Assembly: GCA_947652605.1 (NCBI GenBank)
Contig: OX393581.1
Location: forward strand, 14,264,640 to 14,328,639
Origin: Elmis aenea
Taxonomy: Eukaryota; Arthropoda; Insecta; Coleoptera; Elmidae
Direction: 5' to 3'
Length of the DNA stretch: 64,000 bases
Shown: positions 4,733 through 36,099 of the stretch, one piece after another
How positions within the stretch are numbered: position 1 is the stretch's first letter
Layout of the letters: every line of letters starts with the position of its first letter
The notes under the pieces: generated by a model
What the model was told of the DNA's origin: nothing
Databases searched by the model: none
Seen by the model: only the letters and a program-made list of their open reading frames with translations
Made by a program: the position numbers and the translations under genes

Positions 4733-5368
4733 CCCTCCAGTGCTAACATGCGGTCTCACAGACCGACACCCCAATTTTATCCCCGAAACTAGAAAACGCG
4801 TGTGAGGAGGGGGTTGGGCTCGTCGCTATCTTCATTATATCTATTTATCGACCAGCTCTCGCAGTGGCAAGCGTTTTTTAGGTATTTCGGTCTCACAGAC
4901 CCGTGTTAGTATGGATGTTACTAATTGGATTATTATTACCATTATGTAAAACTTTGTTGGAGAAGAAACTAACTGTGGTAGGCACAATAAAAAAGAACAA
5001 ACGAGAAATACCCTATGATTTTGATAGTCTTGATGAAAATACGGAAAAACCACAAATTATTATGATGTACAATGTACAAAGTCTGGTGTTGATATAGTGG
5101 ACAAACTATGCGCAGGCTATAACTGCGCTAGTAATACGAAAAGGTGGCCTATGGTAATTTTTTATCGTATACTAAACATAGCTGCCACAAACGTATTTAC
5201 AGCATTTAATTCAAAGAGTACAGATTCAAATATGCTTGGAAGGTTTTTTTTTAAATATAAAGCACACTTACAATTTAAATAATACTTGTAAAATAAGCTT
5301 TGGATGAATTCGGTCCCACAGACCGATGTTAGTACTTGCGTTACAAAAATCATGTTAGTACTGGAGGG
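4733..5368 (+). mobile_element. piggyBac-type DNA transposon, internally deleted
   Basis: The element is bounded by TTAA at 4729-4732 and 5369-5372, the piggyBac target duplication. The 18-bp terminal inverted repeats start CCCTCCAG and differ by one base. Three subterminal copies of a palindromic motif, CGGTCTCACAGACCG (4751-4765, 4888-4902, 5311-5325, the last two with one change each), lie inside the ends. At 636 bp it is far shorter than an autonomous piggyBac (about 2.4 kb) and keeps only the C-terminal part of the transposase. Confidence 0.93.
4911..5282 (+). pseudogene. piggyBac transposase C-terminal fragment (DDE_Tnp_1_7 family)
   Basis: Two + strand frames make one recognisable piece of a piggyBac transposase. 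The first contains LLEKKLTVVGTIKKNKREIP, matching the conserved KLTxVGTxxxNKxEIP block. The second contains GVDIVDKLCA and NTKRWPMVIFYRILNIAATN, matching the block around the last catalytic Asp and the tRRWPMviFy block. A single-base frameshift near 5080 separates them, giving a stop at 5095-5097. The N-terminal DNA-binding region and the first two catalytic Asp are deleted, and the C-terminal Cys-rich domain is missing, so it cannot encode an active enzyme. Confidence 0.9.
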
Positions 5369-5372
5369 TTAA

Positions 5373-5695
5373 TAACTTGAGAAATGTATCTACATTTTTC
5401 AAAAAACATTAATTATCAGAAACTTTGACTCTAGAATAAACTATTTTCACAGAGTTAATAAATCAAATTATACAATAGAAATGAATAGAAATTGACAAAA
5501 TATTAATTACACATTTGTTCCAAAAATTTTAAAATTTGACACACAATCTTCTAAACTAAATAATACCCAATTTTTCTTTAGAAAAAATCGGTAAGGTTAT
5601 CTTAAAGGTAGGAAAACGTGACACAGAATAGGGTATTTAACATACCATACCATATTTTATATCAAACAGAGCAATATTTTCGTTTTGATCCATAG
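5373..5695. other. AT-rich non-coding DNA
   Basis: Nothing recognised. Confidence 0.5.
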
Positions 5696-32204: not shown

Positions 32205-32276
32205 GGGTAGTTCACACGGTGACATAAAAATCGCGACTTTAAAAGTCGCGACTTTTATGTCACCGTGTGAACTATC
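32205..32276. repeat. Left terminal hairpin of the middle element
   Basis: GGGTAGTTCACACGGTGACAT is followed after a TCGCGACTTTAAAAGTCGCGA core by ATGTCACCGTGTGAACTATC, so the whole 72-base end folds on itself with one mismatch near the base. Confidence 0.9.
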
Positions 32277-32573
32277 AAAAGTCGCGACTTTTAGGGCCAT
32301 AACCCACTGGCGCGACCTGTCGCGCGCGACAGGTCGCGTTGAGTCGCGCGCGGCTAAATTTTCTATGTATTTATATGGCGCAACGCCCACTGAAGCGACG
32401 CGACTCGCTTGCCGCGCGCGACAGGATTTTGCCTAGCGATTCCGCCGCGACTCGATTGTCGCGCGCGACTTTAGATTACTCGTTTTTATATGGAGCATAA
32501 CCCACTGCAACTGTCAGTCGCGCGCGACTTGTCAAACATCCAACGCTTGTGTATGTTCTGTGAGTCCAACGTG

Positions 32574-34304
32574 ATGGATAACAAATATTTTGATATAGAG
32601 GCACTTATTATAGAGGTGGAGCAGCGACCTCCAAAATGGAATATCACTTTAGGTGAATACAGTGATAAAAATATTAGAAAAAAGTTATGGGAGGAAATCG
32701 TGGATAAACTTGGAGGAGAAGAAATATTATTGGAAGAAAAGAAACAATTCGGTTAGTAAATTCATATATTAAACATATTTATTTTGCCATGTAACTTGAC
32801 CCTCGTTTACAAAATATCTTGCAAAATTATCTCGATATGAGGTTGTAAGACGAGAACTCCTGTTTCTTTCCTGTGATTCTTCCTCGGATGTAGGAAAATA
32901 GGTAAACGTATCACCATCTCTGATGCGAACAAAATTGTGTAAGATGCAGCACGTTTTAACTATATCAATAGCAAAATCAATATCAACATCAAGAGGACGA
33001 TGGAAAATACGCCACTTATTGGCCAAAATACCAAATGTACATTCAATGTATTTCCGAGCCCTGCTTAATCTATAGTTAAATACTTTTCTTTCTGGACTTA
33101 GATGAGTGCCTGAGTATGGCCGCATTATGTTCTCTGTAAGAGGAAAAGCTTCATCTCCGACGAAAACAAGTGGCATCGGTGTAGGATCTGTTGTTGATAT
33201 AGGACACTTATCTGGTACCTGCAATGTCTTGTTTATCAGTTTTTGATAGATCGTCGAATCTTTATATATTGATGAATCACTACATTTACCATACGCTCCA
33301 ACATCTATGTAAATGAATTTGTAATCTGCGTCACAAATGGCAAGTAACACAATGGAGAAATATTTTTTATAATTATAGTAAAGCGATCCACTTCGAGTTG
33401 GTTGAATGATTCTGATGTGTTTTCCGTCAATGGCACCTATACAATTCGGGAATTGTGCCCTCTGCTGGAATATCGTCGCAATATTTTCCCATTCTTCCTT
33501 TGTAGGTTCTCGTAGTGTTAATTCTTTTAGTACAGTCCATATGGCAGTACAAACTTGTCTGACTATTGTCCTAACGGTAGTCATCCCAAGTCTAAAGTTA
33601 TGACAATAATCTCCGAAACTGCAACCAGTGGCCAAATACCTGTACAAATATTTTTTGTTTTAATGGTAGGTTTGCAAGTACAAAAGAAGTGGAAAAATCT
33701 TAGAGACAGCTATTCTCGTGAAGTACGGCGGTTAAAAAATGTGCGAAGTGGATCTTCTGCGACAAAGAAAACCACTTATATATATTTTGAACAACTTCAT
33801 TTTCTGAAAATCGTAACTGAAACCGCTCCAACATCCTCAAATATTGACTGTGAAAATGAAGAAACTGCAACACCTCAAGATACAGAAGAAACGCAGAATC
33901 GTCCACAACTTAAAAAAAAACGGAAAACTGAAGATCCTATTGGCATGGAGATCGTAAATATTTTAAAATCCAGCATTAGCGCCAGGGAGAATCGCGACAA
34001 GGATGATTCGGACAAATTGTTTTTATTGTCTTTGCTGGATGACATTAAAAAAATACCAGATTCGCAAAAGCCCTCTGCTAAAATTGACCTTATTAAATTG
34101 GTTCAAAAATATCAAGCTCCTAACCAAGCTTATTGCAGACGTGACGGTTATGAGTCCCATCATGGTCATGGTTCACAGTGGAATAATGATTATCCAAGCA
34201 CCTCACGTCAGCAATACCACACTCGTCCTCCATTTTCTGAAACTTCAAATCAGTCGATTGAAAGTTTTAATTCTCAATCATCTGATTACTGTGACCTATT
34301 TTAA
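32574..34304 (+). CDS. Harbinger accessory protein with MADF and BESS domains (two exons)
   Basis: Predicted exons are 32574-32751 and 33670-34304, joined by a GT-AG intron of 918 bases (donor G|GTTAGT, acceptor AATGGTAG|GT after a T-rich tract). The join is in frame and rebuilds the middle of the MADF domain, giving KKQFGLQVQKKWKNLRDSYS and a 270-residue protein. Residues about 7-105 form the MADF domain (FDIEALIIEVEQRP, LWEEIVDKL, KKWKNLRDSYSREV, YFEQLHFL). A basic KKKRK stretch follows, and residues about 172-205 are a BESS motif (LFLLSLLDDIKKIPDSQK). In PIF/Harbinger elements the Myb/MADF partner binds DNA and helps bring the transposase to the nucleus and TIRs. I chose ATG 32574 because upstream in-frame ATGs (32490, 32553) lie in or beside the TIR-proximal repeats. 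The intron contains the whole second exon of the opposite-strand transposase. No internal stop in either exon. Splicing is inferred. Confidence 0.85.
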
Positions 34305-34678
34305 TAATGTTGTTTGGATAAATTCTAATTATTTAACTTTTTGTTGTGTAACAGGTAACTGTGATGTTTAGAAAGAATAAACACTTACCTTAATGTTACG
34401 ATGAGTTTTTCTTCAGGACGTATACTCTCGCGAAAATTAGTATTTTGTCCACTTATTTGTTCTGCAATCAGCCCAAGTAATTCATCAAATGATTAAGCGC
34501 TCATTCTACAATAGTTAAAAAACTTGTCTTCATGCTTGCGCAAATCATGATACAGCAAATTGAAAGCGCCTTTAGTATGGCGTTCTAAAAATATGGGATG
34601 GACCCAATATTTATGTTTTTCTTTTTTGCGACGACGAATGTGATAATACAACAGACATGCCATTTCTTCAACCTCCAT
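32769..34678 (-). pseudogene. Harbinger DDE transposase (HARBI1-like, DDE_Tnp_4), two exons, one premature stop
   Basis: Minus-strand exons are 34678-34389 and 33639-32769. The intron has donor TTAAG|GTAAGTG and acceptor TTTGTACAG|GTAT, and the join LR|YLATG is in frame and matches the family's conserved RYLATG block. This would give 386 residues, within the usual range. Exon 1 carries the N-terminal region KYWVHPIFLERHTKGAF and FFNYCRMS. Exon 2 carries the nuclease: D168 in GAIDGKHI, D218 in GKCSDSSIY and E296 in YIECTFGIL, plus VGDEAFPL and NKWRIFHRP. All three catalytic acids are present. The only lesion is TAA at codon 62 (34493-34495), just after CRMSA. The intron contains the entire second exon of the + strand MADF gene. 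The start is ATG 34678. Confidence 0.9.
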
Positions 34679-34738
34679 TTTTAAACTACAAACTACAATA
34701 ACTTCGTTCACAGATACAGTTCGAAACTAGTTCAGAAA

Positions 34739-34869
34739 CAAAACATCACGTCTCGGCATTGAAACTGACGTTTTGGAAGTCAAAAATATTTCAACTTTAA
34801 TGGCTCGGGCGTATCCGGCAAAATTCGCGGGTTAACTCCGCCCTTTCAATGCCGAGACGTGATGTTTTG
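34739..34869. repeat. Perfect 26-bp inverted repeat upstream of the transposase start
   Basis: 34739-34764 (CAAAACATCACGTCTCGGCA + TTGAAA) is repeated exactly inverted at 34844-34869. The roughly 80-base loop contains GCGGGTTAACTCCGCC. It sits between the transposase ATG and the right TIR, so it could be promoter structure, a subterminal transposase-binding site or a tiny inserted MITE (no target duplication seen). Confidence 0.85.
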
Positions 34870-35252
34870 GTATTGTCGCGTTATAACTAGTCGCGCCCAA
34901 AAAAACGCGCGCGACCTGTCGCGCGCGACAGGTCGCGCCAGTGGGTTATGGCCCTTAATGTCACGCAAAGTCGCGACCACGTTCCGCGACATCGATTTGA
35001 CAGTTCGGCATTTGACGTAAGCCTACCATACTTTTATATTTTGACATAACAGACAAATAGGTTAGGTTAACCTAACCTAATATACATTTGTTTGTCATCG
35101 ATTTCGAATTTATCATGTCCCCAATAGATGTTCCAACGATTTTTGATCATTATCAACAAATAGCAACTTCAAAATAATTAGTTGCTCTACAACACTCGAT
35201 GCTGCAATTACAAGAGCGGCCATTTTTATTTTGAAGTCGCGACTTTTAATTT

Positions 35253-35341
35253 GGGTAGTTCACACGGTAACATTAGTCGCGAACTTTAAAAGTCGCGACT
35301 TTTGATGTAGGTAGCTTTAAATGTCACCGTGTGAACTACCC
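35253..35341. repeat. Right terminal hairpin of the middle element
   Basis: GGGTAGTTCACACGGTAACAT faces ATGTCACCGTGTGAACTACCC across a TCGCGA...AAAAGTCGCGAC core. It mirrors the left terminal hairpin. Confidence 0.88.
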
Positions 35342-36099
35342 AATAAAATGTGCTTTTTTCGACTCATTCTAATGATACCTATATCTTTTGTCATATCTAT
35401 TTAAATAAATAACTCAGAAAATCAAGAAAAACCGAATATTATCAATATAATTCTAATTTAGCTATGAAACATGATAACTAACTTAGAATAATATTGGTAA
35501 AATATGTTTTATTTTTATTTTCCGTGTTATTTATTTAAACAGATATGACAAGTGATACATCATTAGAAAGAGGAGAAAAAAGCACATTTAACTATTGCAA
35601 AGCCAACTTGCCTGTTTCACAGCTAACTTGAAACAATATCGGTAAAATAAGGTTTTTCTTGAGTTCCTTAGTTATTTATAAAAACAGATATAACATATGA
35701 TATATCGTTAGAAATAAGGAAAAAAAAGCGCATTGAACTATTCCAAAGCCACCTTGACGGCCCATTAGAAAAGACGAAGTTAGGGGTAATATCTCAAAAA
35801 TGAAAAGCGATTAAGAAAATCTAAGATAATAGTTACATTATACATAAAAAAGTATCTTCAGAAGGTACAAATAAAATTGATTTAATGATTAATAAGAGAA
35901 AAAAGTTATGAAAGAAAAAAGATATTCGACATTTTCATATTTTTTGCCATAACATCTGAAGCACGAGCAATTTTGTACTTTTAAAAATTGATTGTGGCTT
36001 CTCTCATACTAAAGAATAATTCGTCTAATTTAAACAAACCTGGATCTCTTATGATAAGCGAGATCTACATGCTCGAAATGTGATCAGGGACGCCCTGTA

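Follow-up and report, generated by a model that had tools for sequence, protein, structure and literature searches.

The 64-kb window (the whole stretch of 64,000 nucleotides of Elmis aenea DNA that was analysed) carries a DNA transposon of the PIF/Harbinger superfamily with two predicted genes, for a MADF protein and a transposase, that are interlocked on opposite strands. This copy has a broken transposase gene, and the layout is likely a functional design rather than a peculiarity of the locus. The probability given to this reading as a whole is roughly 0.88. That the layout is conserved in distant relatives of the element is what makes a functional design likely.

Organization of the Element and Its Two Genes

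The element and its parts are the following (window coordinates):

32294–34954, unstranded: whole PIF/Harbinger element, 2661 bp, delimited by its TIRs and flanking TTA; the ends are the same in siblings with both ends found
32291–32293, unstranded: left target site duplication, TTA
34955–34957, unstranded: right target site duplication, TTA
32294–32338, + strand: left TIR, 45 nt
34910–34954, - strand: right TIR, 45 nt
32319–32330, unstranded: subterminal palindrome GTCGCGCGCGAC, candidate MADF binding site, also at 32458, 32517 and 34918
32574–32751, + strand: MADF exon 1, first half of the MADF domain (PF10545 profile 1–37; join modelled in sibling L033)
32752–33669, + strand: predicted MADF intron, GT-AG, phase 1, enclosing the entire transposase exon 2
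33670–34304, + strand: MADF exon 2, with the remaining MADF domain (PF10545 44–84), a BESS motif and the stop
34389–34678, - strand: transposase exon 1, with an in-frame stop in the window copy
34493–34495, - strand: premature TAA in transposase exon 1, common to the window copy and sibling L031
33640–34388, - strand: predicted transposase intron, GT-AG, phase 2, enclosing the entire MADF exon 2
32769–33639, - strand: transposase exon 2, with the DDE_Tnp_4 catalytic domain (Pfam, 1.7e-36) and the stop
33640–33669, unstranded: 30-nt stretch with both predicted 3' splice sites back to back, one on each strand
32778–32783, - strand: candidate poly(A) signal AATAAA of the transposase mRNA, 12 nt ahead of the stop codon (a weak call, a hexamer in AT-rich DNA)
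34376–34381, + strand: candidate poly(A) signal AATAAA of the MADF mRNA (a weak call)

Along the + strand the order is thus MADF exon 1 (+), transposase exon 2 (-), MADF exon 2 (+) and transposase exon 1 (-). This alternation of exons on alternating strands is what is understood here by an interlocked gene pair, and the four exons lie at the positions and on the strands given by the original prediction. The parts are closely packed, with 17 nt between the MADF donor and the transposase stop and 84 nt between the MADF stop and the transposase donor. The ends are those of a PIF/Harbinger element, namely TIRs bordered by a duplication of TTA (window copy and sibling L032) or TAA (sibling L033). 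Within the whole window the palindrome GTCGCGCGCGAC has four occurrences, every one of them toward an end of the element.

The joins of the window copy read TCG/GTTAGT...TGGTAG/GTTT for the MADF gene and AAG/GTAAGT...GTACAG/GTAT for the transposase gene. The frame is kept across both and, as had been claimed, both introns show GT-AG splice signals in this copy. Taken alone, the two MADF halves match different parts of the Pfam profile PF10545 (positions 1–37 with 22.8 bits and 44–84 with 38.7 bits); once joined, they match the whole profile, 1–84 (62.6 bits, 4.5e-17). The joined MADF domain, together with the BESS motif, provides the second gene with a Myb/SANT/MADF domain that characterizes PIF/Harbinger elements. 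Their other hallmark, a transposase of the DDE_Tnp_4 family (PF13359), is found in transposase exon 2. Residues D168, D259 and E296 of the transposase are invariant in an alignment of 11 proteins and are presumably its catalytic residues.

The original prediction overlooked an in-frame TAA at codon 62 of the first transposase exon; the window copy therefore cannot make a full transposase as read. Among the seven MADF donors modelled, that of the window family (GTTAGT) has the lowest score, 4.2 against 6.4–11.1 for the others. No retrocopy of the spliced MADF junction of this family was found elsewhere in the genome with up to 3 mismatches allowed.

Sibling Copies in the Genome

The search covered 516 Mb in 302 contigs and returned 133 transposase matches, which is a lower bound. 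Seven siblings of the window copy, 94–99% identical to it in transposase exon 2, have all four exons arranged as in that copy, so that all 8 copies of the window family are alternating. Siblings with side-by-side genes had been named as the outcome that would speak against an interlock; there is none among the seven. The splice-site dinucleotides are identical in every sibling with anchors found.

The state of the genes differs among siblings. Both are open up to the end point of the window copy in two of the seven (L033 and L035). L032 has an open transposase gene and a frameshifted MADF gene, L034 has a transposase stop at another place, and both genes are disrupted in L036 and L037; the insertion found in L036 puts its first MADF exon 2.2 kb away. 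L031 has a broken MADF gene and the transposase stop of the window copy.

Several of these loci are composite. The PIF/Harbinger of the window is enclosed by an outer element (approximately 32205–35343, ends GGGTAGTTCACACGGTGACAT). L031 has the same Harbinger with the same stop codon, the same outer flanks and the same insertion point as the window copy, from which it is likely that the outer element moved with the broken Harbinger as cargo. In L034 the sibling is inserted at another spot of an apparent copy of the same outer element, which hints at a target preference. The full element of L035 is flanked by terminal-only pieces of the family (L035:2111–2567 and 5175–5595) that resemble deletion derivatives, either nested or in tandem.

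Distant Relatives of the First Interlock Type

The window copy and the next 29 loci by transposase similarity (L022–L050) form a sample of the closest matches and not of the genome at large; 8 further loci were hand-picked. Loci L031–L050 are the same places as L002–L021, taken with flanks of 3 kb. Those of L022–L030 were 1.5 kb, for which reason some of these loci may seem incomplete. Exons were mapped by profiles under a fixed rule, with scores of 20 or more for MADF and transposase exon 1 required of a fully interlocked locus. The profiles were built partly from the same loci that were mapped, and exon order is not encoded in them.

All four exons alternate in order and strand in 19 of the 30 loci, 8 from the window family and 11 from others. 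The latter have 44–52% transposase identity and were grouped by near-identity into eight further families. Three more loci are interlocked with a weak first MADF exon (L024, L041 and L043), the second MADF exon of L041 being weak too. The genes lie side by side in three loci of a single family (L022, L023, L050), and five loci are incomplete (L027, L030, L038, L046, L048). The claim of two interlocked Harbinger genes without a common coding base is thus upheld in all seven siblings and in distant relatives, and chance is a very unlikely cause of the order because the same order is found in other families of the same genome.

The introns repeat along with the order. Splice modelling of 19 loci yielded a transposase model for 13 of them and none for six; the intron interrupts the same codon (VTL-R-YLATG) in phase 2 with a GTAAG donor in 12 of the 13, the sole dissenting model (L049) having a negative score. 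MADF models were obtained for 7 of the 19 loci and not for the other 12, and all seven place the intron in phase 1, just ahead of the KKW block. Between families, all four exons change mostly at silent sites: pN/pS is 0.22–0.73 over 19 exon comparisons that include each of the four, and 0.22–0.58 over the 8 comparisons of first exons; these values come from a protein-based alignment with silent sites near saturation. Three pairs of near-copies gave 0.26–1.75 where the ratio was computable, on very few changes.

Some loci of this sample have features of their own. The transposase intron of L046 is only 254 nt long, with no MADF exon found in it by the exon profiles, and a stray antisense exon-1 fragment is present; this locus is a possible escape from the interlock through deletion. 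L026 and L048 (C2:42.397 and 42.401 Mb) are close kin of the same orientation, separated by 4 kb, transposase exon 1 being undetected in the second. L030 has two sets of MADF-exon-2 and transposase-exon-2 matches within 3.7 kb, possibly from adjacent or nested elements.

Second Interlock Type and Transposase Tree

A second type of interlock is seen among hand-picked loci whose transposase exon 2 starts approximately 45 residues later and has a MADF match nearby. Five were fetched with longer flanks, and four of these have the alternating layout (L057, L058, L059 and L060). L051, L052 and L056 are parts of L057–L059, and L053–L055 are partial loci without an order score. Here the whole MADF domain is found in exon 1 and exon 2 codes for a BESS-like tail, a resemblance suggested by eye, BESS not being called by Pfam in L057. 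The transposase intron follows (V/L/I)K at the same place and in phase 0 in all four. The MADF introns are in phase 0 in the three loci with a sound model, the MADF gene of L060 being broken and its model poor. The fifth locus, L061, has the intron places and phase of the second type with genes that lie side by side and convergent. Its introns are short; one measures 88 nt, and the best transposase model, perhaps misplaced, gives 41 nt for the other. Contig C31 carries a second L061-like copy with the same spacing between MADF and transposase genes.

These loci were placed on an unrooted tree of 41 transposases in which several deep forks are weak. The labels were assigned by hand: the 14 first-type rows include loci scored as weak or incomplete (L024, L030, L041, L043 and L048) and the seven second-type rows include the partial L053–L055. 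The tree requires one change for the second intron type, L061 included, and two changes between interlocked and side-by-side genes. A constraint that unites the three side-by-side rows is disfavoured (p-AU 0.031); one that unites the seven second-type rows is not (p 0.33). Since both introns differ between the types, the loci are most simply read as indicating that interlocking arose twice, separately. Frog and insect transposases, compared as proteins, sit among the first-type rows.

Related Proteins in Other Species

Relatives of the proteins are found mostly in insects. The closest outside MADF protein, P0001 from a termite, is 54% identical over 77% of the query and shows no break at the predicted MADF join. 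Nine of the ten outside transposases aligned extend across the transposase join, T-(L/I)-R-Y-(L/F); the aphid protein P0011 lacks four residues at this point, as with a mis-set exon end. Four metagenome gene calls (P0003–P0005 and P0063) suggest the presence of these introns elsewhere, as they enter the second exon from an apparent intron. One source supplied both P0004 (MADF exon 2) and P0038 (transposase exon 2), in either case from a contig of 2422 bp that is possibly one and the same.

No relatives were found in viral contigs. Those in the prokaryote genome set are confined to one contig, L062 (JAHZIU010000197.1), filed in a betaproteobacterial MAG. Its Harbinger-type transposase is open across both intron positions, and no MADF gene was recognised by eye among its ORFs of at least 80 residues. 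L062 is likely animal contamination.

Alternative Readings of the Layout

The alternating order might be an accident of the locus, a side-by-side copy having been rearranged by inversion or by insertion of one element into another. The surroundings lend themselves to this, the window copy being nested in another element, L036 carrying an insertion and L035 terminal fragments, and relatives with side-by-side genes do exist (L050, L022, L023, L061). These relatives are however separate lineages and not siblings of the window family, while the order is the same in all 8 copies of that family and in 11 loci of other families, with intron positions and phases that repeat. Local rearrangement is rejected on the ground that the order is shared by all siblings and by other families, and it is left with a negligible probability. 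It could also be supposed that there is no interlock of spliced genes, each second exon being a separate gene that starts on its own and needs no splicing, with the first exons as relics. MADF exon 2 and transposase exon 2 do lie head to head, as if around a shared promoter, and the four metagenome gene calls enter the second exon from an apparent intron. Against this stand the mostly silent change of the first exons between families (pN/pS 0.22–0.58), the half of the MADF domain carried by the first exon, the in-frame join across splice signals and the presence of both parts in proteins of other species. Such independence was rejected on account of the conservation of the first exons and their continuity in those proteins; it is very improbable, though less so than a local accident.

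Given interlocked genes, the layout could serve regulation: unspliced antisense RNAs would pair, the back-to-back 3' splice sites would make the two splicings mutually exclusive, and protein output would be balanced or self-limited. A predicted pre-mRNA overlap of approximately 2.1 kb (32574–34678) fits this proposal, as does the recurrence of the layout in the second type with other introns. The 3' splice sites are 30 nt apart in the window copy and L033, 36 nt in L039 and 60 nt in L044 and L045, but the distance is 83 to 440 nt in the remaining six of the loci measured, so that tight coupling is not needed; side-by-side relatives, moreover, persist as well. A regulatory role is on balance unlikely. 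Alternatively, the genes may have been threaded into each other by duplication and complementary loss and be held in a neutral trap, as no single deletion or inversion would undo the arrangement without killing one gene, and it would then persist without benefit. Two separate interlock types fit this account, and so does L061, in which both second-type introns are short and the genes side by side, as expected of a pre-interlock state. Less easily accommodated are the duplication intermediate, which was not recognised among the loci read, and the two or more switches between interlocked and side-by-side layouts that the unrooted tree requires. Neutral entrapment is given slightly better than an even chance.

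Proposed Expression and Origin of the Interlocked Genes

In the mechanism envisaged for the interlocked element, transcription of each gene would start at a promoter close to the end on its side and proceed inward. Each pre-mRNA would run antisense through the second exon of the other gene, and splicing would remove that stretch. Poly(A) signals near each stop would end the mRNA inside the intron of the other gene, ahead of its first exon. AATAAA or ATTAAA is found near the transposase stop in 9 of 11 loci (-60 to +160 nt) and near the MADF stop in 10 of 11 (-60 to +250 nt), and these candidate signals give a hint that the mature mRNAs may hardly overlap. By analogy with zebrafish Harbinger3_DR, we infer that the MADF-BESS protein likely binds subterminal sites, for which GTCGCGCGCGAC is the candidate, and recruits the DDE transposase to the element ends.

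The alternating order could have originated from a convergent pair, M1-M2 > < T2-T1 (M and T standing for MADF and transposase exons), by tandem duplication of the middle block M2-T2 followed by loss of one copy of each duplicated exon, giving M1-T2-M2-T1. L061 fits the state before duplication for the second type. A single inversion of the middle block was also considered and discarded, as it would not yield the observed strands.

Relation to Known Systems and Significance

A study of insect PIF/Harbinger elements (Markova et al. 2022, PMC9710019) describes a DDE transposase and a MADF protein coded by one element and considers both to be required jointly. It describes domesticated insect transposase-MADF pairs as neighbours, one of them annotated as a single transcript; these are the same two genes as in the window element, adjacent there and interlocked here. 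For Harbinger3_DR, the same text reports that the Myb-like partner binds subterminal sites and that partner and transposase co-localise in the nucleus only when they make contact (PMC9710019), which makes this element a precedent for the role of the partner protein. Medicago PIF/Harbinger elements share with the window element the TIRs, a 3-bp TAA/TTA duplication and the transposase and orf1 genes. Their genes, in contrast, lie one after the other, orf1 being upstream in five elements and downstream in six (PMC2213677). In human Pou5f1/Tcf19, the exons and introns of two opposite-strand genes are reported to overlap (PMC8493703). That case is a single host locus, whereas the interlocked Harbinger is a mobile unit present in many families and its genes have no coding bases in common. 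Searches of one open-access library, by title and the opening of the abstract, brought up nothing pointing to an interlocked layout, an absence that does not establish novelty. What is new here is the body plan, the element itself being of a familiar kind.

A broader proposition, to which even odds are given, is that interlocking is a recurrent and ancient PIF/Harbinger architecture with at least two independent origins and non-homologous introns in both genes, the older type predating the split of insect and frog transposase lineages. Many "lone" animal transposases would then be members of interlocked pairs and some domesticated two-exon transposases would be fossils of them. The cockroach genes BPLG1 and BPLG2, reported to have two exons and one intron, that of BPLG2 being about 900–1500 bp in most species (PMC9710019), are possibly such fossils of an interlocked element.

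Interlocked genes on opposite strands seem fragile, since each has to be transcribed through a coding exon of the other and then spliced around it. As the body plan of about nine families near the window element in one genome, plus four with other introns, the arrangement would show that eukaryotic genes can be nested in each other lastingly. It is also a warning for annotation, as gene finders that proceed one exon at a time miss part of each protein. With its many replicates, the system would allow testing whether antisense transcription, splicing conflict and dsRNA silencing constrain gene layout.
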